In this document: positions 44,563 through 60,256 of the stretch, in pieces
Position numbering within the stretch: position 1 is the stretch's first letter
Layout of the letters: each line of letters opens with the position of its first letter
Origin: Bacteroidota bacterium
GTDB lineage: Bacteria; Bacteroidota; Bacteroidia; Bacteroidales; JAADJA01
Direction of reading: 5' to 3'
Assembly: GCA_020444515.1 (NCBI GenBank)
Contig: JAHLKX010000002.1
Coordinates: 310,001 to 374,000 of the forward strand
DNA length: 64,000 bases
Position numbers and translations under genes: made by a program
Notes under the pieces: generated by a model
Database searches by the model: none
Seen by the model: the letters and a program-made list of their open reading frames with translations, nothing else
What the model was told of the DNA's origin: nothing

Positions 44563-45180
44563 TTAACTTTTCGCAGTCTCTTTGGCTTTTTTCGACTTGA
44601 GATAGATTTTCTCATTCCACCAAACCCACAAGAAAAACATCACGACATAAAAGAAAGGACGCATTACATAATCATGCATGAAATCCCAATGTTCGGGGAT
44701 ATTCATGGTAACCACCACCATGCCGATTATTCTGAAAACATTCACAATGTGAATAATGATCAGTCCCAGGGGAATGAACCACAATTTATGTTTCCATGGA
44801 CCGGGATAAAGCAGCATCAGGAAAAACCACTGGTAAAACTGCTTCAGGCCGGAACAGCTCAGATTCACATATACGTAGCCATTGGTTTCTGCGTAAAAGA
44901 ACACATTGTCGTGCATGCTGTTAAATATCTTGATTTGATCAAATGCAATGACATTCATGCCGGTTACATGAAAAAACCATTTGCTGGTTTCATAAACGAC
45001 ACCTGCCAGCCAGTGAGCTGAATTGCGAATGAAATCCACAGCGAGGATATCGGTAACAAAAATTTTCCACAGAACATGAAAAGCCAGTAGAATGACCATG
45101 AAGATGATGACGTCTTTAAACGCATACAAATGATATTTTTTGATCAGATCATTCAATTTATTCAACAGCGGATGACTCAT
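44563..45180 (-). CDS. exosortase/archaeosortase family protein
   Basis: This 205-residue polytopic protein has about six hydrophobic segments. The three catalytic residues of the exosortase family are visible: Cys109 in VNLSCSGLKQFYQWF, Arg150 in IHIVNVFRIIGMV and a His in PEHWDFMHDYVMRP (His164 or His169). Exosortases are thought to cut PEP-CTERM-like sorting signals, and in several bacteria their action is linked to exopolysaccharide. It is shorter than the usual 280-residue forms and matches the compact Bacteroidota variants. Nearby tiny proteins with PVGG-P(I/L) motifs are the best candidate substrates. The flanking genes are a GT2 glycosyltransferase and a divergent membrane protein. 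Confidence 0.85.
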   Translation of the reverse strand: MSHPLLNKLNDLIKKYHLYAFKDVIIFMVILLAFHVLWKIFVTDILAVDFIRNSAHWLAGVVYETSKWFFHVTGMNVIAFDQIKIFNSMHDNVFFYAETNGYVYVNLSCSGLKQFYQWFFLMLLYPGPWKHKLWFIPLGLIIIHIVNVFRIIGMVVVTMNIPEHWDFMHDYVMRPFFYVVMFFLWVWWNEKIYLKSKKAKETAKS

Positions 45181-45292: not shown

Positions 45293-46594
45293 TTGAGTTC
45301 TCACAGACGAGTAAAACATAAGCGGAAGAAGGGATCAACAGCTGGAATTATCCGTAGCGTCAAAAAGTTTTTAACGGAGCTTTTTGCCAGAAGTGCACCC
45401 CCAAAAGAATACCGGCCCTTCCTGGGTCCGGAAGCCAGTCCGGAAGAAATAGAACAATTAAAATTTGAAAATACGCGGGCTTCTAAGAAAAAAATGCACC
45501 ACCACAGAAGCAGCTCCAAAAGGAGGAGCTGGTTATCATTTTTAAGTTTAAAGGAATTTAAGCGCTGGCAGGAAAGAAGACTTGAAGGCCGTAAGAGACG
45601 CAAAGCGCGGCGAAAAATGAAGGCCAGGAAGCGTAAGCATGATAGGATTAGTCGTCGCCGCGATTTTATCCGGCGTTTTTTCCCCAACTATAAAAAAGAA
45701 CGGGCCATCACCATTGAACTGGCTCAGGATGAATCGGAGGATCGGGTAAAACACGGGAAATACCTGACCTATACCATCAATTCAACCATCCTTTATATCA
45801 TTGCTTACCTGGCGGTGTATATGACCTACCAGATAACCGTATTGGTCATGGCCTCCCGCTGGCGGCTCGATTCGGTATTCTTTTATTATGATCTGCAATT
45901 CAATGATTTTTCACCCCTGTGGACGCCTTTGAACATCATCATCATTACCCTTTCGGGGCCTTTGATATCTCTGATCATAGGGATCCTGTTCCTGCGATTG
46001 CTGGCCAATCGATTTCATCTCCGCAAACACACCAAATTGTTGATGCTGTGGATCGGATTGCATGGATACAATCTTTTCCTGGGAGCATTTGCCTCCGGTA
46101 CTTCTTTCGATGAAGGCTTCGGATATGTTGCAGCCTGGCTCTACCTGAATATTTTCTGGAAAATCCTTATCTCTCTTGTGTTCCTGTTCCTGTTGGGATG
46201 GATCGGTTTTGCCTCTGCCTCGAAATTCCTGGATACGAGTTACTCCGTAACCCGGGTGAAGGCCGAAAACAAAGTGAAGTTCCTTTTTTATCAATCCTTT
46301 CTGCCCTGGCTGATTGGGGGATTGGTGCTGTTTTTGGTAAGGATCCCCAACAATGTACCCTACGATACGGGTAACCTGATCACCATGTTGTTTGCCGTAT
46401 CACCCATGTTGTTCAACAGGGCGGCCAAGCCCACCAAGAATTTCAGGGTTGAACGCAAACAAAACCGCATCAAATGGCTGATCTTTATAATCATGTTCAT
46501 TCTGGTGCTGGCCTATCGCCTTGGTTTGGACAACGGCCTGCATGTTCAGCTTTATTACCGGTTTATTTTTAACCTGAACATTACCCCCATTTAG
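45293..46594 (+). CDS. polytopic membrane protein with highly basic cytoplasmic N-terminus
   Basis: This 433-residue protein appears to start at TTG 45293, since no in-frame ATG precedes residue 68. Residues 1-145 are extremely rich in Lys and Arg (many KRKK, RRKARRKMKARKRK runs). About seven to eight transmembrane segments follow from about residue 165. Within them lies LWIGLHGYNLFLGAFASGTS (near 250-270), with His and Gly residues that recall membrane-embedded enzymes. No family was recognised. The positive N-terminus should be cytoplasmic and might bind nucleic acid, ribosomes or acidic lipids. It is transcribed divergently from the exosortase and converges on rnr with a 4-bp stop overlap. 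Confidence 0.7.
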   Translation: MSSHRRVKHKRKKGSTAGIIRSVKKFLTELFARSAPPKEYRPFLGPEASPEEIEQLKFENTRASKKKMHHHRSSSKRRSWLSFLSLKEFKRWQERRLEGRKRRKARRKMKARKRKHDRISRRRDFIRRFFPNYKKERAITIELAQDESEDRVKHGKYLTYTINSTILYIIAYLAVYMTYQITVLVMASRWRLDSVFFYYDLQFNDFSPLWTPLNIIIITLSGPLISLIIGILFLRLLANRFHLRKHTKLLMLWIGLHGYNLFLGAFASGTSFDEGFGYVAAWLYLNIFWKILISLVFLFLLGWIGFASASKFLDTSYSVTRVKAENKVKFLFYQSFLPWLIGGLVLFLVRIPNNVPYDTGNLITMLFAVSPMLFNRAAKPTKNFRVERKQNRIKWLIFIIMFILVLAYRLGLDNGLHVQLYYRFIFNLNITPI

Positions 46595-49573: not shown

Positions 49574-49798
49574 TTAATTTCCTTTCCTGAAAAAAAGAAG
49601 CATTTTCCGGAAACCATATATCATACCATACAACAACAGGGTTAACAATCCGCTGCCAATGGGAGAGCCTCCAACCGGTGTCCCTCCGCCGGTATTGGGA
49701 TCCCCGCCCGGATCAGGCGGCGCATCAGCCATAACGGGAAATACCATAAAAACAATCAGGATAACCAATATGACAAGAACATGGGTGTGGTTTTTCAT
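49574..49798 (-). CDS. tiny exported protein with PVGG-type C-terminal sorting-like signal, form A1
   Basis: This 74-residue protein has a signal peptide to about residue 25 (ending PVMADA) and a Pro/Gly-rich stretch (PPDPGGDPNTGGG). The motif PVGGSPIGSG (41-50), a short hydrophobic segment (51-64) and a basic end (FRKMLLFFRKGN) follow. The layout motif + short transmembrane + basic tail is that of PEP-CTERM-like exosortase signals. I recall a Bacteroidota domain called PID-CTERM with this look, which I could not check. It begins 5 bp after the stop of the giant lamin-tail T9SS gene, so it is the last gene of that operon. Almost nothing is left as a mature domain. Confidence 0.75.
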   Translation of the reverse strand: MKNHTHVLVILVILIVFMVFPVMADAPPDPGGDPNTGGGTPVGGSPIGSGLLTLLLYGMIYGFRKMLLFFRKGN

Positions 49799-49803
49799 AT
49801 CCC

Positions 49804-52800
49804 TTATTTTATGTGGATTTTACGATTGATCAACTGAGAATCGGTCAGGATGGAAACAATGTAATAACCCGTTTCTACATCCAATCCAATTGTTAAATAG
49901 CGAAGGTTATTCATCTTGACACTGGCCACCTTTCTCCCCATCAGGTCAAATACCATCACGTTTCCAGACAATTCATTTTCGGAGGCGATGACGACTTCCT
50001 GACCTTTGGAAAAAACCAGCATATCTTCTGAACCTGTCCCTTCATTGGCACCTGGCATCTCGTTATAGCTGAAGTGCAGTTTAAAACGGGCCGGGTCATC
50101 CTGTGCATTCGCATGGAACTTATAGTGTGGGTTGGATTTGAGGTTTACAACGATGTGTTCCTTTTTATCTTCCAGGAATATGGGTATTCCATCCAATCCA
50201 TTGATACTTGCAAGATATAATTCGAAAATTCCATCTATTCCGGCCTCAAATGACAAATTCACTGCATTTTGCGGGATCACCGGAATGGCATGGATGGCAA
50301 GCTGATGGCCTTCTTCTGATCGAGTGTAAAACTGAGGGGATGCTTCAGAACCTTGCAGTTTATATGCATCAAGCTGGCTGTCGAATCCGGTACTGGCTTC
50401 ATCTGAAAAATAAATGACGGTTTCATCCTGCCCATCCATTCCCGAAACTGTCAACTGCAATGATTCAAAAATACTTTCACTTTTCAGGTTGTTCTGGGTG
50501 GTATGGATGCGGGTGGCATCTGAAATGCTCAAAGTGGCCCCACCCGTTCCGCAATGGATGAAAAATCCCTGGTGCGGTGGCAATTGGTTGGTGAGACCAT
50601 TGACACTGAATCCATTCACATAAGCGCCGTATTGTGAACCGTTCCAGGCATAGATAGCATTGTCGATATTGGATTTGGTCCAACCCGGTCCCTCCCAGTC
50701 AATACCTGAAGGATAGGGATTACCGATCAGGTTATAGCCCGGCCACTCAAAAGCGGAAGCGGGTGAATTGGTTACGGATATTGACCTGTTTCCGGCATTC
50801 ACTGTTCCGGTAAAAAGAAAAGTAGCATCGGATTGCGGCCAAACCGAATAACCTTGAAGGTCCATGGCAAGGGTAGAATCAGAACTCACAACCCATTGCC
50901 AGGTACCCGAGATTTCATCCCACCATTTCAGAAAATGACCTGTAAATATCCCCGTATTGGGGTCGTCGATGGGTGAACCAATAAAATGCCAGTCGGAGGC
51001 AGGAACATAAGCCTCAACAGTCGCATGAATCCCGGAGGGTTCAATGAGGGACCCATTTCCGATAGCATCCGATCTTACAATCACTGACCCATTACTGGTA
51101 AAGGACCCATAAACAGTCAGCGCACCTGATGCAGCAATTTCTAAAGTCGCTCCTGATGAAACGGTTAGTTGAAAACAGTTTGCAAACCCATTGATCACAG
51201 GTGATGGGGCCTTTGTACCACTTACATCTGGAATGAGTGCATTGCCCGAGGCGATGGGCACTTCGGCATCCCAATTGCCACCATTGTCCCAATCCGAATC
51301 CGAAGCGCCATTCCAGACCGTTCCACCAAATCCGAGGTTTGTAAAATAGTTTTGCTCTTTCACAATCCACTCCGAATTGGAAGCATCGGTGCCGGCAGAA
51401 CTGATCCAATCGGTATTTCCGGCAGTTATGGAGGTCTTGCGGATGAGGGTATGTTCTTCCGTAGCTTCGGTAATACCGGCAACATTCCAACCATTCCCGG
51501 GGTCTTCCCCTTCAATGCCAATCACATCAATGAGAAGGGTTGAATAAAACAATCCCAGGGCATCATTCCCATTGAAGAAGGTCACATCCGAAGTTATATC
51601 TCCAACCGCCTGAATGGCAGGGTCGGCACTGGCATTGTAGATGACATAAACATCACCTGCTGTCAGGATACCTGAAAGGGTAATGGCATTTCCCCATGGA
51701 TTTCCATTGGAAGCCAGTTTTACCGTAAAATCGGATAGATCAATGTCGGAGCCACTACCATTGTATACCTCAATGGCTTTGTTATTGCCCGAGCCTTCAA
51801 TGTATTCCGAAAAAAATACAGCAGGAGAAGCGGGTGGATCACCGGTGGTCGCCTCATCCTGTGGAACCGTTCCATCGGTTTTATAATTAATGGATGCGTT
51901 TGAACCATTATAAGGGTAGATTTTAAAATAGTAGTTGGTGGAGGGCGTTAAATCAATAAACTGGTAAATTTCAACTCCGGGAGCCACATTCTGAACCAGA
52001 AAATCATTGATTTCAGGGATTCCATCCTGGGGAACTGTGATATCACCATAGTTTACATCACTTCCTTTGAGGAGGTAACCTTCTGCTGCAGGATCGGCAT
52101 CGGTCCATGAAACCGTGATTTCAGTAAAGGAATCTGCACTGGCTGAGAATCCTGTAGGGTGATTGGACGGTTCGCCTGAGGTCACATAGCCGTTGCAGGC
52201 AACAAATTGACTTGTCGCACCAGCCGAAGAAATTTCGATGTTCTCACTGTAAGTCCCGGCTCCTAAACCGGCTTTCAGCCTCACATAAACCGGGGTTGAG
52301 TTCACCGATCCTCCGGATTGAAAGAGCGTTATACCCGTGGATTGAAAGGCTGAATTATCCAGTGATATTTCATAACTGGTTGACGGGGTGATAAGGATAT
52401 CATCCGTGAGCTCAACACCACTCACATTCATGCTTTGGGAGGTGGAGGGACCCGAACCCAGGGCATATGCAAAATCTTCTAAAGCCCCGGGAGAAACAGT
52501 GATAACAGGGGTAGCAGGTGCAACCGGTGCGATCCCAAAACCTGCCAGTCCTCCACTGGCAGATGGTGTTGTGCTGACGGTTTGAAACCGTTCACTGGGA
52601 TCGGTCCAGCCATCCAAATCACCACTGAAAATTCCGGTAAGTAACTCAATGTTTTGATTGGCTGTGGATACACCGTTCCCCGACCAGGATGAACCAGGAT
52701 CTGAGCCGGGTGTTCCAAATACATCGGTAGTGGTTCCCCCATATTGTACCACCAGTGCATCATCACCGTTAAATTGAAACGGTTCGCTATAGTATGTGGA

Positions 52801-53106
52801 TCCATTGCTAATGGTGATGCTTTCCATATCGGAAGTGCCGATCACGATCACTTCGCCTATACTGAGCGTTCCGGTATTGAGGCTAAAAACCGAAACCGGA
52901 CTGCCGCCATTGGTGCCCTGTAAAATATCCAGGGTCTGGCCTGAAAAATCGAGAGGCGATCCGGTATTGTTCCAGATTTCAATTCCTTTCGGGCTTGTTC
53001 CCGAATCGGTTTCAACATATTGACTGATGATCTGACCATGTATGGGTAGTGTTGCTATGAGTAAAAGCAAGCTTATGGAGATTCCTGTTTGTATGATACT
53101 TTTCAT
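49804..53106 (-). CDS. T9SS-exported protein with two lamin-tail-like domains
   Basis: From the ATG at 53106 (MKSIIQTGISISLLLLIATL) the product has 1100 residues. An ATG at 53130 lies 9 bp after the endonuclease stop. The order is: signal peptide; lamin-tail-like domain (SPKGIEIWNNTGSPLDFSG, VIVIG); Ig-like stretch (SPGALEDFAYALGSGPSTSQ); Fn3-like domain; second lamin-tail-like domain (VFFSEYIEGSGNNKAIEVYN, NASADPAIQAVGD); a large beta-rich region (NPYPSGIDWEGPGWTKSN, PPHQGFFIHCGTGG); and a T9SS type A domain (VMVFDLMGRKVASVKMN, TGYYIVSILTDS). The Fn3-like part resembles the C-terminus of the neighbouring endonuclease. Lamin-tail domains in secreted bacterial proteins often go with nucleases or adhesion. 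Confidence 0.85.
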   Translation of the reverse strand: MKSIIQTGISISLLLLIATLPIHGQIISQYVETDSGTSPKGIEIWNNTGSPLDFSGQTLDILQGTNGGSPVSVFSLNTGTLSIGEVIVIGTSDMESITISNGSTYYSEPFQFNGDDALVVQYGGTTTDVFGTPGSDPGSSWSGNGVSTANQNIELLTGIFSGDLDGWTDPSERFQTVSTTPSASGGLAGFGIAPVAPATPVITVSPGALEDFAYALGSGPSTSQSMNVSGVELTDDILITPSTSYEISLDNSAFQSTGITLFQSGGSVNSTPVYVRLKAGLGAGTYSENIEISSAGATSQFVACNGYVTSGEPSNHPTGFSASADSFTEITVSWTDADPAAEGYLLKGSDVNYGDITVPQDGIPEINDFLVQNVAPGVEIYQFIDLTPSTNYYFKIYPYNGSNASINYKTDGTVPQDEATTGDPPASPAVFFSEYIEGSGNNKAIEVYNGSGSDIDLSDFTVKLASNGNPWGNAITLSGILTAGDVYVIYNASADPAIQAVGDITSDVTFFNGNDALGLFYSTLLIDVIGIEGEDPGNGWNVAGITEATEEHTLIRKTSITAGNTDWISSAGTDASNSEWIVKEQNYFTNLGFGGTVWNGASDSDWDNGGNWDAEVPIASGNALIPDVSGTKAPSPVINGFANCFQLTVSSGATLEIAASGALTVYGSFTSNGSVIVRSDAIGNGSLIEPSGIHATVEAYVPASDWHFIGSPIDDPNTGIFTGHFLKWWDEISGTWQWVVSSDSTLAMDLQGYSVWPQSDATFLFTGTVNAGNRSISVTNSPASAFEWPGYNLIGNPYPSGIDWEGPGWTKSNIDNAIYAWNGSQYGAYVNGFSVNGLTNQLPPHQGFFIHCGTGGATLSISDATRIHTTQNNLKSESIFESLQLTVSGMDGQDETVIYFSDEASTGFDSQLDAYKLQGSEASPQFYTRSEEGHQLAIHAIPVIPQNAVNLSFEAGIDGIFELYLASINGLDGIPIFLEDKKEHIVVNLKSNPHYKFHANAQDDPARFKLHFSYNEMPGANEGTGSEDMLVFSKGQEVVIASENELSGNVMVFDLMGRKVASVKMNNLRYLTIGLDVETGYYIVSILTDSQLINRKIHIK

Positions 53107-53139
53107 AAACCTTATGCCTGGATTGTTCATGATTCCTGT

Positions 53140-54285
53140 TTAATTTGCCTGGATGCTGATTTGCTGAATGGTCCCATCGGTTTTATAGTCGATGGCTGTC
53201 CCGGCGCCGGTATATCCGAATATTTTAAAATAATAGAGGGTTCCATCCGTCAGTCCGCTGAAAGTGCAGGTTCCTTCGCCATAGACTACATTGCGATTCC
53301 AGAAGTCGTCACTCACCGGGTTTCCATCGGTGGGTGTTACAATGTTTTCAAAACCGGTATCGCTCATTCGGATGAGGTATCCGTTGGGCACCACCGGCCC
53401 TGTTGCATCGGTCCAGTTCAACGTAATGGTATGGGCCGAGAACTGGGTCACATGTTGTTCGGGTTCAGGAGCAAATCCGGTACCCCAGATCAGTCCGACA
53501 TATTCGGGATGATCAATGAACGGGTTCCGGTTATTCTGAATGGCATACACCGCATTGTTGCGGTCAATTTCTTTCTGGCTCACCGGATCACCGGCATGCC
53601 AGCTCATGATCAGGTTCAGGAACCAGGATTCAAACGCCGGGTAGGAACTTCCGTCGAGTACGACATCGCCGTTGGCATCATTGTTTTCCCAGCCGGCAAT
53701 GATATCGGCATAGCGGGTAGCCATGTAAAAATAGTTTCTTGCAAAATCACCCTTGTATTCATCAGCCGGTTCAAATACGGTACCAGTGTAGCCCGGAAAA
53801 TTGCAGGGACCCAGTTTGGAATCGTTGCTGGAGGTGTAGCTGGGCGCATTGGTTTCGCCATAAGGAAAACTTCCACGGACACCGTTTACGTAGCCATCCG
53901 TTGGTACCAGTTGAAACAGGTCCGTGTACATGGGGGCTGCATCATCAAACCAACTGGACGGAAAAGAGTGCTCGCGGTTATAACAGTCACATTCTCCGGA
54001 ATAGGTGCCGCATTGATCGGAGATAAAGGTGAAGTTGCATGCTGTATACATGTCCCATACCTCCCCGCTGCCATTGGCATCGGTTGATTGAAAGGCTGTC
54101 CACACATTGCTGTAGGATATGGAGTTGTGATCATCAATGATATTGTGAAGGGCCAGTTGCAGGGGTTCTCCGCTCAGACCGGCTGCATCGTCATAATATC
54201 CCGGCGGAATCTGGCCCATAACGAGGGTACTGATCAGAACAACCATTCCTGCTGACAGGGATTTCAGATTTTTTAATGTCATCAT
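53140..54285 (-). CDS. secreted endonuclease I family protein with C-terminal Fn3-like domain
   Basis: This 381-residue protein has a signal peptide (MMTLKNLKSLSAGMVVLIST, ending VMGQ). It has an endonuclease I (EndA/NucM) domain with the catalytic ECDCYNREHSFPSSWF (His-Asn metal region), TDLFQLVPTDGYVNGVRGSF and ARNYFYMATRYAD. After about residue 290 there is one Fn3-like domain (YFKIFGYTGAGTAIDYKTDG). It has no T9SS sorting domain, unlike its neighbours. It should degrade extracellular or periplasmic DNA for nutrients or biofilm turnover. It precedes the lamin-tail T9SS gene by 9-33 bp on the same strand, so the two are likely cotranscribed. A TAGTTTTG element lies just upstream. Confidence 0.9.
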   Translation of the reverse strand: MMTLKNLKSLSAGMVVLISTLVMGQIPPGYYDDAAGLSGEPLQLALHNIIDDHNSISYSNVWTAFQSTDANGSGEVWDMYTACNFTFISDQCGTYSGECDCYNREHSFPSSWFDDAAPMYTDLFQLVPTDGYVNGVRGSFPYGETNAPSYTSSNDSKLGPCNFPGYTGTVFEPADEYKGDFARNYFYMATRYADIIAGWENNDANGDVVLDGSSYPAFESWFLNLIMSWHAGDPVSQKEIDRNNAVYAIQNNRNPFIDHPEYVGLIWGTGFAPEPEQHVTQFSAHTITLNWTDATGPVVPNGYLIRMSDTGFENIVTPTDGNPVSDDFWNRNVVYGEGTCTFSGLTDGTLYYFKIFGYTGAGTAIDYKTDGTIQQISIQAN

Positions 54286-54380
54286 TTTATCGGGTAAAAA
54301 AGGAATTCAAAACTAATAAAAGGCTTGCAGAGGGCCGCTTTCAGGTAGCTTAAATTTTACTTAATTATTAACAAAGAATA

Positions 54381-54412
54381 AAAAGCGCATGTGGAGAACC
54401 ACACGCGCTTTT
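54381..54412 (-). terminator. terminator after the mini-protein B1 gene
   Basis: AAAAGCGCATGTGG (54381-54394) pairs with CCACACGCGCTTTT (54399-54412) with one G-T pair and a 4-base loop. On the minus strand it is followed by TTTTTATTC. It ends the 54696/54439 transcript and separates it from the endonuclease operon. Confidence 0.82.
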
Positions 54413-54438
54413 TTGTTAAAAGTCTGCTACAATATGTT

Positions 54439-54669
54439 TTAATCGTCTTTTCCGAATTTCCAGACTTTCCTGGCACCATAGGCCGAACCCATGGCGATTA
54501 ACATGATCAGACCACCATCAATGGGTGCTCCTCCACCTACAGGGATGTTGGTGGTCCCTGAGTTGGGAGCATTGCCACCATTGGGATGCGGAGGATTTTG
54601 CGCTAACAGGAATAAAGGTGCTGTCATCAGAATTGCAACGATCAGAATATTTTTTATTGCTTTTTTCAT
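54439..54669 (-). CDS. tiny exported protein with PVGGGAPIDGG sorting-like signal, form B1
   Basis: This 76-residue protein has a signal peptide (MKKAIKNILIVAILMTAPLF, ending LLAQ) and a short Asn/Pro/Gly part (NPPHPNGGNAPNSGTTN). The motif PVGGGAPIDGG (43-53), a hydrophobic segment of about 12-14 residues (LIMLIAMGSAYG) and a basic end (ARKVWKFGKDD) follow. It shares AYG and the two basic residues with the 59806 protein. It begins 26 bp after the giant lamin-tail T9SS gene and is followed by a terminator, so both form one operon. The layout suggests an exosortase-type substrate rather than an enzyme. Confidence 0.78.
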   Translation of the reverse strand: MKKAIKNILIVAILMTAPLFLLAQNPPHPNGGNAPNSGTTNIPVGGGAPIDGGLIMLIAMGSAYGARKVWKFGKDD

Positions 54670-54695
54670 TGTTCTTCGCTTTTTATGGTTAATAA

Positions 54696-57600
54696 TTATT
54701 GAATGAAAACTTTCTCTGATGAAATGCCTTTGTCACTCACCACATTCACAATGTAGTATCCTGTTCTGTCGATGGATACCCTGGTTAATTCATTGTTCAG
54801 TTGTTTTTGGGTGATTTCCTGTCCCATCAGGTTGTATACATGAATGCTTCCGGTCGCCAGTTCGCTGGAGGAAACATACACTTCACTGCCAAATGAATAA
54901 ATATTGAATAGTTCACTGGCATTGTTTTCAGAAATACCAAGCGTTGTGAAATGCAATAAAAAGCGGTTTTCATCTGCCACATTATAATTAAATGTATAAG
55001 AACTGTTAAGCAGATCTGTTGTTTCACCTGTGAATAAATCTTCAAGGATCAGGGTTTCACCAGTCCCGGTTTCCAGCGCCGAAATAGTAAAAGAATCAGC
55101 CTGACCAGCTTTTACATCTATTGGAACCACATTGGTTTGTGGCAATGAATTGATCGATAGATATCCATTGAGGTTAGAGAAAATCTGCGGTGCTTCGGGT
55201 GTAAAAGCAAACAATTTATGAGCATCCCAATCAGCATCAAATTCAGCGCTAGCACTTTCAACGAAACGAATAACCGTTTCATCAGCATAACCGTTGCCTG
55301 ATACCTGCAGCCTTACAAGCTCGCCTGTAGCTTCAGTACTCTTATAGAAAGTGGAACCCATGGCAGTCCTTACAGCATCAGTCATTATTAGTGTTCCATC
55401 TTCTGGATATGCTCCACCGCCATCCATAACCGAAACAAAGAATCCCTGTCCGGGGGCGATGTATTGTGAACCACCATTTGCTTGGGCTCCGTTAATATAG
55501 GTTGCCCAGGTTGATGAATTTACATGGATATAAGTAGCGTTATTGAGATTTGTTTTTGTCCATCCGGCAGCATCCCAGTCAATGGTAGAGGGATAAGGAT
55601 TACCCACCAGGTTCCATCCGAAGTTATCTTCTGTCGGACTAGCCGGCGCTCCTGAGCGTTTAAGGTTATTTCCGCTTCCACTTGATCCAGCTTTGAAAGT
55701 GCCAGTGAAATTAGCTGTGGCAGTAGCATCATTCCATAAAGCATATCCTTGCATCTCATTTAAAGTTGTTGCCGGATCAATAATATCAGTGTAAGCATTG
55801 GTTGATTCTGTGTGGTATTGGAGGTATAAACCTGTAAACATACCAGCTTGTGCTTCACTTTGTATAGGAGAAGAGATTAAGTGCCATTCACTGCCTTCAT
55901 AATAGCGTTCCATTGTACCATAGACACTGGATGTTGTAACCAATGAACCCGTTCCTGAAGCATCAGATTTGATGGTTAAATCGCCATTATTGGTATAAGT
56001 TCCATTTACAGTAAGACTGCCGCTTGATGCTATTTCTACGCTTGCACCTGCATCCACAGTTAAATCAAAAGTAGCGCTCTCTCCATTGATAACAGGCTGA
56101 TTGAGAGGACCCGCAGAAACAAGAACATTGTCAGAAGCATCCGGAATATAACCATAAGTGCCGTCCCAGTTCGTACCTTTTGAATTCCAATCTGTTGAGA
56201 TTGTCCCCTGCCAGTTCTTAGTTTGCATGTGTAAGTCTGGTGTCATATCACTCGTACTTGCTGACATCGATACATGCCATTCTGAAGCAGTCCAGGTTGC
56301 ATTTCCTGTAGATACAGAGCGTAACCTAACCGCTTTCGAATCCAGGTATTCCCAGGGTTTATTTGTTCCATCTTCATCAATTACCCCATAGCTATCAACT
56401 AATGTTCCCGTGACATGATCACCGTTTGTGTAAAGGTAATATCCATCATCTCCATTTCCTGTAATAGCTCCATTATATAAATCGGCTTCAAAACCAAAAT
56501 TGGATGTGAAACCTGATTGATTGTATGCAACTATATAACACTCACCAGGGTTTAGAATGCCAGTAAGGAGTACATCTGCCCAGGAAGTAGGACTGCCATT
56601 TGCCTGTCTTGAAAGATACCATATCTGAGAACCAAAATCAATAATTGAACCGCTTGCATTATACAATTCAACATATCTTGCGGTAAAATCATCTAATGGA
56701 TCGACAACTTCAGAGATAAAAATATCAGGTAAAGTAGGATTATCTGCATTTAGAACACCTGAAACATTGGTAATACCATCCCAGAAGCCACCACCTCCAC
56801 CATTGTATCCGCCGTAAACATAATCAGATACATCGAGTTTAAAACGACTGGCGTAATAATACGTCCCTGGTCCTGGGATTACGGAGCCCAAATTGGCAAC
56901 GTATTCATCATTATCTCCAATATCTGTATTATACGAAGCTTCTACCCAATCAGTCCAGGTTGATGGATCAGTATCTGTAGTGCTAAATCCTATCCATGCT
57001 GTGATACCTGCTCCTTGTCCTGGTGAATTTGTTATTCCATCTTCATTAACTTGAGCATATACATCATAATCTCCGCCAAATGTAATTGTGCCTGAACCTG
57101 GCCACTGTAAATTGCACCAGTCAATTTGCACTCCTGAAGGATTTACAAATAAAACTCCGGACACATTAGTTGTTCCATCCCAGAAGCCACCACCACCAAC
57201 ATTGTATCCACCATAAACAAAAGGACCCGCACCATATTGGAATCGGCTGGCATAATAATAATTTCCGGATGTAAGAATACTACTACCTATTTCAGCCATG
57301 TATTCATCGTTATTGCCAGCGTCGGTATTATATGTAGCAGGTACCCAATCTGTCCACGTAGAAGGGTCTGTATCAGTTAAACTGTAACCTATCCAGGCAG
57401 TGATATTTGATCCCTGTCCACCCGGTTCGGTAACACCTGATTTAAATATTTGTGCATAAACAGTATAGCTATCGCCTAATGTAATTGTCCCCGATCCTGG
57501 CCATTGCACATTCGCCCATTCAATTTGATCAGCTATTGATACATCATCAATATTCCAATAACTTAATCTGTCGGTATTGTTCTGGTAGAAAAACCACCTC

Positions 57601-58940
57601 ACATAAAATGTTTCTGAACCAACACCATCCGCAGCATCTAGTGTGACAATTTTCTGAGCTGATTCGTCAGCCGCAACAACTTGGTCCCATGCAACATTTG
57701 AAAAGTTTGAACCATCAGTGCTAGTTAATACTTGAACAGTAAAATCTGCACCAGAACCACCTTCGTAGAAATCAACACTTTGGTTCCATGAAAGAATTAA
57801 TTCTGTTTTTCCAGTACTATTAATGGGTGGAGTAGTAATTTGACTTGTACCAGCATTTGCATTATAAAAAGCTAATTCAGCTTCGTTTGGGGTACCTCCA
57901 GCATTTGCTGAATTCTCTATAGTAAAATCAGCAGAGCTCCAACCTGTAGGTAAGGCTGAATCATCAAAAGATTCTGAAAAAGGCAATGCTTCAATTGCTA
58001 TTACACTACCTTCGCAAGAAACGGTTTTATCGGTAGCATCAGTACTTGACATAACAATATCTTCAATATAGTCACCAGCAGCTAATCCAGCTTTCAAACG
58101 TGCATAAATTATTGTTGTTGTGACAACACCGCCTGATTCCGTTAAGGTTATTGAAGTACTCTGATAAGTAATATCATCTGATGATATTTCATAATTATTA
58201 GTTGGAGGAGTAACAACAATATCATCTGTTAAATCAGTACCTTCAACAGTGAATGATTGTGAGACAGAAGGTCCTCCAATTGATTCAATATATGAGAAGC
58301 CAGATAATGAGTTTGGTGAAACGGTTATTACAGGACCTGCTGCAGCACCAATCCACGCTCCGGGATCAAAATCATCAGGTGCATTTTGAGGTAAATTTGT
58401 AGTTCCTGCACCACCTGTGTCATTCCAAACGTTCCATTCACTAAAATCATATGTTGCATTTCCAGCAGTAACAGTTGCTTTCCGCTCTGCCCTGCCATCT
58501 TCAAATTCATGATTTGTACCAGAACCATCTTCACCAGGAACACCAAAAATATCAACAATTACATCTGATGGATCTCTCAGAGCAATTTGGTCATCTCCAT
58601 TACTATCAGCTGGTCCATTAGTGCCTATATTTTGGTCCGCAGCAAAACCATAGGTATCGGTAAAAGTTGTTTGGTTGGCACATACAATATAAAAACCTCC
58701 GGCAGGAATAGTCCCAGTCAACTCAACAGGACTTTGTGGGTCTGTGTAATCGTTAGTCCATCTCTGTAAATCCCATCCTGTACTCAGATCTACAGCTGAA
58801 GCTCCTGCATTATAAATTTCAACAAAGCGGGCTCCTGCTTCATTATCAGGATCTGCAAGTTCTGTCAAAAATAATTGTGACCATCCCTGATATGTGAGTG
58901 ATATCAGAGATAAGGTCAATAATAACGTAATCCTTTTCAT
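54696..58940 (-). CDS. giant T9SS-exported protein with lamin-tail domains and tandem repeats
   Basis: This 1414-residue protein has a signal peptide (MKRITLLLTLSLISLTYQG) and a first lamin-tail-like domain (LFLTELADPDNEAGARFVEI, GGFYIVCANQTTF). An Ig-like stretch (SPNSLSGFSYIESIGGPS) and a MAM/jelly-roll-like domain (PTGWSSADFTIENSANAG) are next. Two tandem repeats of about 130 residues (56745-57515, QWPGSGTI, DTDPSTWTDWV, YYYASRF, GGGGFWDG) follow, then a second lamin-tail domain (IFISEVVDPLDDFTARYVEL). A beta-rich region and a T9SS type A domain (VYNLMGQEITQKQLNNE, TGYYIVNVVSDKG) end it. It is probably a large surface structural or adhesive protein. It is transcribed together with the mini-protein B1 gene. 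Confidence 0.87.
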   Translation of the reverse strand: MKRITLLLTLSLISLTYQGWSQLFLTELADPDNEAGARFVEIYNAGASAVDLSTGWDLQRWTNDYTDPQSPVELTGTIPAGGFYIVCANQTTFTDTYGFAADQNIGTNGPADSNGDDQIALRDPSDVIVDIFGVPGEDGSGTNHEFEDGRAERKATVTAGNATYDFSEWNVWNDTGGAGTTNLPQNAPDDFDPGAWIGAAAGPVITVSPNSLSGFSYIESIGGPSVSQSFTVEGTDLTDDIVVTPPTNNYEISSDDITYQSTSITLTESGGVVTTTIIYARLKAGLAAGDYIEDIVMSSTDATDKTVSCEGSVIAIEALPFSESFDDSALPTGWSSADFTIENSANAGGTPNEAELAFYNANAGTSQITTPPINSTGKTELILSWNQSVDFYEGGSGADFTVQVLTSTDGSNFSNVAWDQVVAADESAQKIVTLDAADGVGSETFYVRWFFYQNNTDRLSYWNIDDVSIADQIEWANVQWPGSGTITLGDSYTVYAQIFKSGVTEPGGQGSNITAWIGYSLTDTDPSTWTDWVPATYNTDAGNNDEYMAEIGSSILTSGNYYYASRFQYGAGPFVYGGYNVGGGGFWDGTTNVSGVLFVNPSGVQIDWCNLQWPGSGTITFGGDYDVYAQVNEDGITNSPGQGAGITAWIGFSTTDTDPSTWTDWVEASYNTDIGDNDEYVANLGSVIPGPGTYYYASRFKLDVSDYVYGGYNGGGGGFWDGITNVSGVLNADNPTLPDIFISEVVDPLDDFTARYVELYNASGSIIDFGSQIWYLSRQANGSPTSWADVLLTGILNPGECYIVAYNQSGFTSNFGFEADLYNGAITGNGDDGYYLYTNGDHVTGTLVDSYGVIDEDGTNKPWEYLDSKAVRLRSVSTGNATWTASEWHVSMSASTSDMTPDLHMQTKNWQGTISTDWNSKGTNWDGTYGYIPDASDNVLVSAGPLNQPVINGESATFDLTVDAGASVEIASSGSLTVNGTYTNNGDLTIKSDASGTGSLVTTSSVYGTMERYYEGSEWHLISSPIQSEAQAGMFTGLYLQYHTESTNAYTDIIDPATTLNEMQGYALWNDATATANFTGTFKAGSSGSGNNLKRSGAPASPTEDNFGWNLVGNPYPSTIDWDAAGWTKTNLNNATYIHVNSSTWATYINGAQANGGSQYIAPGQGFFVSVMDGGGAYPEDGTLIMTDAVRTAMGSTFYKSTEATGELVRLQVSGNGYADETVIRFVESASAEFDADWDAHKLFAFTPEAPQIFSNLNGYLSINSLPQTNVVPIDVKAGQADSFTISALETGTGETLILEDLFTGETTDLLNSSYTFNYNVADENRFLLHFTTLGISENNASELFNIYSFGSEVYVSSSELATGSIHVYNLMGQEITQKQLNNELTRVSIDRTGYYIVNVVSDKGISSEKVFIQ
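56745..57515 (-). repeat. two tandem 130-residue repeats inside the lamin-tail giant
   Basis: The units at about 57140-57515 and 56745-57115 share W(P)GSGTIT.G, AWIGYS/FS..DTDPSTWTDWV, YNTD.G.NDEY, YYYASRF and YGGYN.GGGGFWDG in the same order. About two in three residues are the same. They probably come from an in-gene duplication. Confidence 0.75.
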
Positions 58941-59805: not shown

Positions 59806-60030
59806 TTAATCTGCTTTTCTGAAGGATATTATTTTCTTCGATCCATAAGCGGCTCCTGCGATCAGCATGATGATCAATCCACCATCCAAGGGCGCTCCGC
59901 CACCCACGGGTATGTTGGTGCCTGACCCTGGTACACTGCCACCATTGGGGTGAGGCGGATTTTGTGCCTGCAAGCCAATGGCCAGAAATGTAAATGCCAT
60001 CGTGAATAATATTCTTCTAATCAGCCTCAT
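59806..60030 (-). CDS. tiny exported protein with PVGGGAPLDGG sorting-like signal, form B2
   Basis: From the ATG at 60030 the product has 74 residues. A longer frame to 60102 exists, but it overlaps the next gene and would put 24 polar residues before the signal peptide. It has a basic n-region and signal peptide (MRLIRRILFTMAFTFLAIGL, then QAQ). NPPHPNGGSVPGSGTNI, the motif PVGGGAPLDGG (41-51), a hydrophobic segment and SKKIISFRKAD follow. It is a close relative of the 54439 protein. Its start overlaps the end of the form A2 gene by 14 bp, so translation is probably coupled. Confidence 0.78.
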   Translation of the reverse strand: MRLIRRILFTMAFTFLAIGLQAQNPPHPNGGSVPGSGTNIPVGGGAPLDGGLIIMLIAGAAYGSKKIISFRKAD

Positions 60031-60256
60031 CGGATTGGTTAAAGCGATACACTTTCTTAATTCCATAAGCTGCGCCCAGCGACATGAGCAATACCATACC
60101 ACTGCCTATCGGTGAACCACCAACGGGAGTTCCTCCACCCGTTCCATTCGGGTCACCACCCGGATCGGGGGGAGCATCGGCAAAAACACTGTTGATAAAA
60201 ACAGGGGATAGGAGCAGAAGAAATGAAGAGATTAAAATGATAATTATTTTCTTCAT
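60017..60256 (-). CDS. tiny exported protein with PVGGSPIGSG sorting-like signal, form A2
   Basis: This 79-residue protein has a signal peptide (MKKIIIILISSFLLLLSPVF, ending VFADA) and a Pro/Gly part (PPDPGGDPNGTGGGT). PVGGSPIGSG (44-53), a hydrophobic segment (54-66) and the basic end IKKVYRFNQSDEAD follow. It is the near twin of the 49574 protein (shared DAPPDPGGDPN and TPVGGSPIGSG). It is the first gene of a two-gene operon with form B2 and has a near-consensus promoter upstream. The two forms therefore appear once each here and once each after a T9SS giant. Confidence 0.78.
   Translation of the reverse strand: MKKIIIILISSFLLLLSPVFINSVFADAPPDPGGDPNGTGGGTPVGGSPIGSGMVLLMSLGAAYGIKKVYRFNQSDEAD

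Follow-up and report, generated by a model that had tools for sequence, protein, structure and literature searches.

RemA/RemZ-type T9SS cargo genes are paired with genes for short predicted exosortase targets in several classes of Bacteroidota

Several described systems resemble in part the locus reported here. The targets of the PEP-CTERM/EpsH system (PMC1569441) have a signal peptide and a C-terminal signal composed of a motif, a helix and a basic segment, and they co-occur with an exosortase and with exopolysaccharide (EPS) genes, all of which also applies to the small proteins (minis) that are the subject of this study; however, the classical targets are diverse and mostly encoded in single-gene operons, whereas here a bare peptide is encoded together with a T9SS adhesin. 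The PID-CTERM proteins (NF046080) and exosortases X and Y (NF046081 and NF046083) provide the same motif, helix and basic tail, with an exosortase in the genome that is sometimes the direct neighbor of the mini, the differences being that one mini of the locus (A1) is not recognized by the model and that its own exosortase is XrtX-like rather than a scored XrtX. For type B T9SS cargo, the cargo gene is followed by the gene for a cognate PorP/SprF shuttle, and this partner decides the location of the cargo (PMC12618676). We propose a comparable order here, a cargo gene and then the gene for a location-setting partner, although the cargo is of type A and the partner, a peptide that carries an exosortase signal, is no PorP/SprF-like shuttle. 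RemA and RemZ of Flavobacterium johnsoniae (8gl6, 8gl8; PMC10994853) have the same ~300-aa module directly before a type A C-terminal domain (CTD) as the cargo described below, but differ in their N-terminal domains, and the Flavobacterium-like module genes that were sampled have no mini behind them. In the XrtF system (TIGR04128/TIGR04127; PMC10936215), xrtF and its partner gene are required by F. johnsoniae for sand colonization, as are T9SS genes; at loci of our sample such as L264 and L311, the genes for XrtF and its associated membrane protein likewise stand near EPS genes, a giant cargo gene and a variant mini, all on one strand, the difference being that a PI[ST]GIE peptide is the candidate target here.

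The stretch of DNA that was analyzed (the window; 64,000 nucleotides, positions 310,001 to 374,000 of contig JAHLKX010000002.1, Bacteroidota bacterium assembly GCA_020444515.1) contains two units in which the gene for a giant protein is followed by that for a mini (Table 1). The order of giant and then mini, the positions, the gaps of 5 bp (giant 1 to mini A1) and 26 bp (giant 2 to mini B1) and the terminator after B1, as given in a preliminary description of this DNA, were all confirmed. The open reading frame of giant 1 runs from 53130, and an ATG at 53106, its ninth codon, is an equally plausible start. Both giant-linked minis of the window are 74–76 codons in length. Between the two units is a gene for an endonuclease I-fn3 protein, and a protein of like size and ending is encoded at the equivalent spot in G011 and G014 (L060 and L064).

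Table 1. Coordinates of features of the window and of the variant and solo minis at sampled loci
Feature	Position	Strand	Description
Exosortase/archaeosortase family membrane protein, XrtX-like	44563-45180	-	205 aa; TIGR04178 63.9 bits (cut-off 23)
Membrane protein beside exosortase	45293-46594	+	433 aa
Mini A1	49574-49798	-	74 aa; signal peptide, Pro/Gly-rich segment, PIGSG motif, hydrophobic helix, basic tail
Giant 1	49804-53130	-	1108 aa; T9SS cargo: LTD, fn3, RemA-type module, C-terminal type A signal
RemA-type module, giant 1	about 50041-50946	-	~300 residues
Endonuclease I-fn3 protein gene	53140-54285		
Intrinsic terminator 3' of mini B1	54380-54413	-	strong; 15-pair stem, then T run
Mini B1	54439-54669	-	76 aa; PID-CTERM protein, PIDGG motif
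Giant 2	54696-58940	-	1414 aa; T9SS cargo: LTD, RemA-type module, type A signal
Type A signal, giant 2	54699-54932		
RemA-type module, giant 2	about 54933-55838	-	~300 residues
Mini B2	59806-60030	-	PID-CTERM protein; solo, not behind a giant
Mini A2	60017-60256	-	solo; 14-bp overlap with B2
PI[ST]GIE minis	L264 7893-8090; L311 7730-7945; L347 1477-1680; L348 1495-1689; others		behind RemA-module T9SS genes
Flavobacterium-like solo minis	L350 1483-1692; L351 1486-1695; L352 1483-1701; L353 1498-1713; L356 1480-1677		

The view that the giants are T9SS cargo was supported by the type A signal model TIGR04183 (cut-off 23 bits), against which giant 2 scored 26.7 bits and giant 1 fell just below the cut-off (21.4 bits, E 2e-4), with a tail that aligns with those of other mini-linked cargo. 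The lamin-tail domain (LTD), which the preliminary description had taken to define the mini partner, was rejected as the determinant: only two of the 11 LTD proteins above cut-off here have a recognized mini, and in mini-linked giants elsewhere the domains include LamG, cohesin, CBM and fn3. The LTD is incidental, and what the mini-linked giants have in common instead is a module of ~300 residues immediately before the T9SS signal. No Pfam entry was found for this module. In a profile search of the PDB it matched RemA (E 7e-32) and RemZ (E 3e-31) of F. johnsoniae and, more weakly, Mfa5, with the profile A2 covering residues 1050–1348 of RemA and 835–1026 of RemZ. By this common pre-CTD module the giants are classed as RemA/RemZ-type adhesins, for which a role in surface adhesion or gliding is predicted. 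The predicted structure of the last 460 aa of giant 2 had a pLDDT of 90, and its modelled CTD superimposed on the RemA CTD (8gl6) with Z 9.9 and rmsd 1.8 over 72 residues. The model of the module (pLDDT 84) had no convincing match of known fold in the PDB (best Z 5.7), and the missing match of this model is no evidence of a new fold; in the structure of the RemZ-bound translocon the cargo is well resolved in the CTD only (PMC10994853). The RemA/RemZ-type module is widespread across the phylum. At L169 (G000:C9:79306-80208) the gene for a module protein is broken by an in-frame TGA, with an LTD match below the cut-off nearby. Three PorU-type T9SS sortase genes of the own genome, two of them in tandem, score above the curated cut-off (G000:C3:843315-850482 and C10:320570-323176).

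The minis share one layout, in which signal peptides and helices were assigned by eye: a hydrophobic N-terminal signal, a Pro/Gly-rich stretch of ~14–24 residues, a PI-[DGS]-[GS]-G motif, one hydrophobic helix and a basic tail. Past the signal, 83 distinct minis from within the genus give the consensus A-Q/D-x-P-P-[HD]-P...P-V-G-G-G-A-P-I-G/D-G-G, and with cysteine nearly absent they are not lipoproteins. That the minis carry an exosortase-type signal was borne out with the NCBIfam model PID_CTERM (NF046080, cut-off 26 bits), which B1 and B2 passed at 28.9 and 31.5 bits; A2 scored 24.4 bits as a protein and 26.2 bits in the genome search. There was no match of A1 to NF046080, and it is designated as PID-CTERM-like only, having the architecture of the other minis and the type-A sequence of A2. 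A secreted product as short as this, with its N terminus conserved (Q/D-x-P-P-[HD]-P) and several copies per genome, could also be thought of as an exported pheromone-like signal that is freed by the exosortase, with the adhesin merely a co-regulated neighbor. We consider this improbable, given that the minis are linked to RemA-module cargo and EPS genes and not to sensors, and that solo and giant-linked copies are very similar in sequence.

The exosortase of the window scored 92.1 bits against the XrtX model NF046081 and did not reach its cut-off of 170 bits. Its putative catalytic residues, Cys109, Arg150 and His169, were invariant in 15 of 15 relatives. The adjacent 433-aa membrane protein had no NCBIfam or Pfam match, and whether it is part of the system is uncertain; a 447-aa protein of similar look adjoins a solo mini in G055 (L116), and neighbors of similar size occur at L070 and L080. 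In a sample of 395 genomes from across the phylum, PID-CTERM proteins were found in 62 genomes and exosortases in 115, the latter being present in all 62 mini genomes versus 53 of the 333 others (Fisher 1.1e-40, a value that ignores shared ancestry). Among the close relatives, the mini/exosortase table was 26/2/6/26, and when each family outside the genus was reduced to a single genome it was 10/1/6/26 (p 4e-5). The minis are accordingly classed as predicted targets of the exosortase, and their cleavage is likewise a prediction.

The claim that giant and mini form a unit depended on their adjacency not being absent from related genomes; this was checked, and the adjacency was found to be conserved. 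Minis were searched for in the own genome and 59 relatives and were identified in all 16 genomes of the same genus and in 11 of 43 other relatives, so that the 28 mini-bearing genomes comprise the own genome, 16 of the same genus and 11 of other families. In the stretches that were fetched, 115 minis were examined and the upstream gene was visible for 110 of them; for 62 of the 110 it was a same-strand RemA-module gene directly before the mini, at a median gap of 34 bp. The tails of 62 of the 79 same-strand upstream genes matched the T9SS type A model, these two sets of 62 having been counted independently and their members not matched one by one. None of the divergent upstream genes had the module. 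T9SS tails number at least 150 in the ~4,300 genes of the own genome, or at most ~7% if all 316 candidates are counted, and from a T9SS-tail rate of 3.5–7% no more than ~8 T9SS neighbors would be expected by chance, compared with the 62 observed (base rates and gene counts are approximate, and related genomes are not independent). Outside the genus, eight of the 11 mini-bearing families of the order have at least one pair of module gene and mini. Small open reading frames behind large genes might, on account of their size alone, be taken for products of chance or annotation; this explanation, to which we give practically no weight, is refuted by protein-level conservation of more than 100 copies in several classes, by the existence of a curated NCBIfam model and by an adjacency far over expectation.

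In the own genome, four of the eight minis are directly behind a T9SS gene. The remaining minis of the genomes searched are solo and include tandem pairs before an RNase H gene, a locus beside radA and divergent loci; in G026, G033 and G051, minis are directly before an exosortase gene. The pair A2/B2 of the window is among those that stand before the RNase H gene, where a tandem pair or a single mini is kept across the genus. The mini beside radA (L013, 8669-8899, and orthologues) lies between outer-membrane-protein-like and radA-like genes and is retained by many members of the genus.

At the scale of the phylum, 28 minis of the 395-genome sample were readable, and 23 of their 26 same-strand upstream genes had a T9SS tail; the module was likewise found in 23 of 26, with a profile for which sequences of the own genus alone had served as training set. 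Several classes of Bacteroidota have such a RemA-module T9SS gene paired with a mini, and the proposal that the two form a conserved unit is upheld in genus, order and phylum. A strong preference for the module was also apparent within the own genome, where there are 13 module proteins and no fewer than 150 T9SS tails: each of the four T9SS genes with a mini behind it encodes a module protein (chance about 4e-5), and a profile built without the own genome ranked precisely these four first (1 in 715). The idea of one mini per giant holds for both giants of the window and does not extend to the module proteins as a whole, since nine of the 13 in the own genome have no mini behind them; none was recognized in at least 45 of 75 loci of the named sample described below. 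On a tree of 121 module proteins, at least 14 changes between having and lacking a mini are needed, compared with 30 in shuffles (a count that predates the recognition of some variant minis), and the mini is therefore a clade-level trait with gains and losses. The Flavobacterium-like genomes sampled had RemA-module genes and XrtF-like exosortases with no mini behind the module genes, and an extension of the pairing to these genomes was rejected.

Nearest-partner matching of minis and giants was at chance (102 of 309 versus 98 expected), whereas the two are correlated in coarse distance (r 0.54; 0 of 2000 within-genome permutations). One-to-one specificity was not retained and we do not claim fine coevolution; the peptide therefore seems generic rather than giant-specific, and this weak tracking speaks against a dedicated one-to-one chaperone. 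We think it quite unlikely that the mini acts as a membrane-tethered escort or regulator, retaining or freeing the giant in the periplasm ahead of export and being switched off by the exosortase cut. Such a role would suit a gene directly behind the giant, a product with a signal peptide and a membrane helix, and the precedent of the downstream partners of type B cargo (PMC12618676), but the mature segment is just ~14–24 residues, Pro/Gly-rich and near-constant whatever the giant, and the solo minis would have no client.

A further sample was blind to the minis and consisted of 80 loci in named records, mostly metagenome-assembled Bacteroidota, that were fetched by module similarity alone; the contig profile search used the closer subset of a 39-row alignment, and many of the loci are from fragmented metagenome assemblies. 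A mini was identified downstream by pattern at 21 of the 75 loci with a readable downstream region. Direct reading of the downstream open reading frames at selected loci added at least seven, bringing the number to 28 of 75, and L292 and L312 contributed two more. The minis found by reading, outside the first pattern, included the PI[ST]GIE and PINGLG types. At L292 and L312 a T9SS giant is followed by a 96-aa mini and this in turn by an exosortase, the gaps being about 40 and 9 bp, and these two loci apparently hold the whole system as one operon. Minis with the motif P-I-[ST]-G-I-E, which were not recognized by PID_CTERM, were found at L264, L270, L278, L290, L295 and L311, with relatives in G108, G205 and G245. 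They immediately follow RemA-module T9SS genes and precede an EPS dehydratase-like gene, which is UDP-sugar 4,6-dehydratase-like in L278, where it was scored. The gene order at L264 and L311 is XrtF-type exosortase, XrtF-associated membrane protein, aminotransferase (LegC/PseC-like in L264), giant, variant mini and EPS gene, closely spaced and all on one strand. At least five loci, L264, L270, L290, L295 and L311, have an exosortase upstream of the giant, and the two that were scored, those of L264 and L295, were XrtF by model. The PI[ST]GIE peptide is a candidate XrtF target.

Counting as support from sequence the adjacency, the module, the layout of the minis, the co-occurrence with exosortases and the three-gene loci, we hold with about even confidence that the peptide is processed by the exosortase and acts on behalf of the RemA-type adhesin, its probable role being that of a partner in surface or matrix attachment; the preliminary description had offered attachment partner, chaperone and tag as examples of what a mini might be to its giant. 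The pairing points to cooperation between two surface-sorting systems that have been regarded as separate. Each giant–mini unit would be a two-gene operon for a RemA/RemZ-type adhesin exported through its T9SS type A signal and for a peptide substrate of the exosortase. The mini would leave the cytoplasm through Sec and stay anchored in the inner membrane through its C-terminal helix, as inferred after the PEP-CTERM/EpsH system (PMC1569441), on established knowledge of which the proposed processing of the peptide is based. The exosortase would then cut at the PI(D/G/S/T)G motif and join the Pro/Gly-rich peptide of 14–24 residues to a lipid or glycan carrier, and the carrier-borne peptide would reach the surface or the exopolysaccharide, where RemA-type adhesins may use it as a partner for attachment or as a link to the matrix. 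Counted against attachment are the common solo minis (A2/B2, the RadA-side locus and others), the module proteins that mostly have no mini, the lack of minis behind the module genes of Flavobacterium, and the nearest-partner matching at chance.

The main rival is co-expression only, in which adhesin and peptide belong to one matrix or biofilm program and one operon, are sorted separately and never interact. We regard this as possible, though doubtful. It would account for the existence of solo minis, for the absence of fine tracking between mini and giant, for the solo exosortase–mini pairs of other families (G026, G033 and G051) and for the EPS genes within giant–mini operons, but not readily for the repeated placement of the mini, in several classes, behind one module class alone while most T9SS genes of the own genome lack it, nor for a link that is kept within clades, as judged by the changes in the tree relative to the shuffles. 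A more specific version of the joint-sorting proposal is that the peptide conjugate made by the exosortase is the acceptor to which PorU or another step joins RemA-type cargo, the two sorting systems acting in series and the peptide replacing or supplementing the A-LPS anchor. This anchor is known from Porphyromonas gingivalis. We consider the acceptor version unlikely, and keep attachment, in the broader sense given above, as the preferred reading.

The individual parts of the system, namely PID-CTERM, exosortase, the T9SS type A signal and RemA, are already known by name. No paper mentioning "PID-CTERM" was found in the literature searched, a scope outside which most subscription papers and the NCBIfam model notes lie, and the parts seen of the literature on both exosortases and T9SS do not report a giant–mini pairing. 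Within the same literature, no published description was found of an exosortase-type signal combined with T9SS export, in agreement with the preliminary description, nor of the fixed pairing, the module-defined partner, the one-operon cassettes or the PI[ST]GIE class. The pairing bears on how type A T9SS adhesins are held at the surface outside Porphyromonas-like species and on the targets of the F. johnsoniae exosortase, deletion of whose xrtF gene has a phenotype (PMC10936215). To both questions it offers a concrete answer in the form of peptides of ~60–95 codons that are often encoded directly behind a recognizable class of adhesin. The peptide family includes the PI[ST]GIE class that is missed by current models, and the RemA-type module, absent from Pfam, gains a phylum-wide genetic partner.

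A Flavobacterium-like solo mini of ~65–72 aa (e.g. ...PAPIDGVGLLILLLAAILLGIYVIYKHKLK) was also observed beside riboflavin synthase-like and pdxA-like genes. The genomes of L350–L353 and L356, in which it was located (Table 1), have an exosortase and mostly no PID-CTERM match, and this solo mini is a candidate XrtF substrate.
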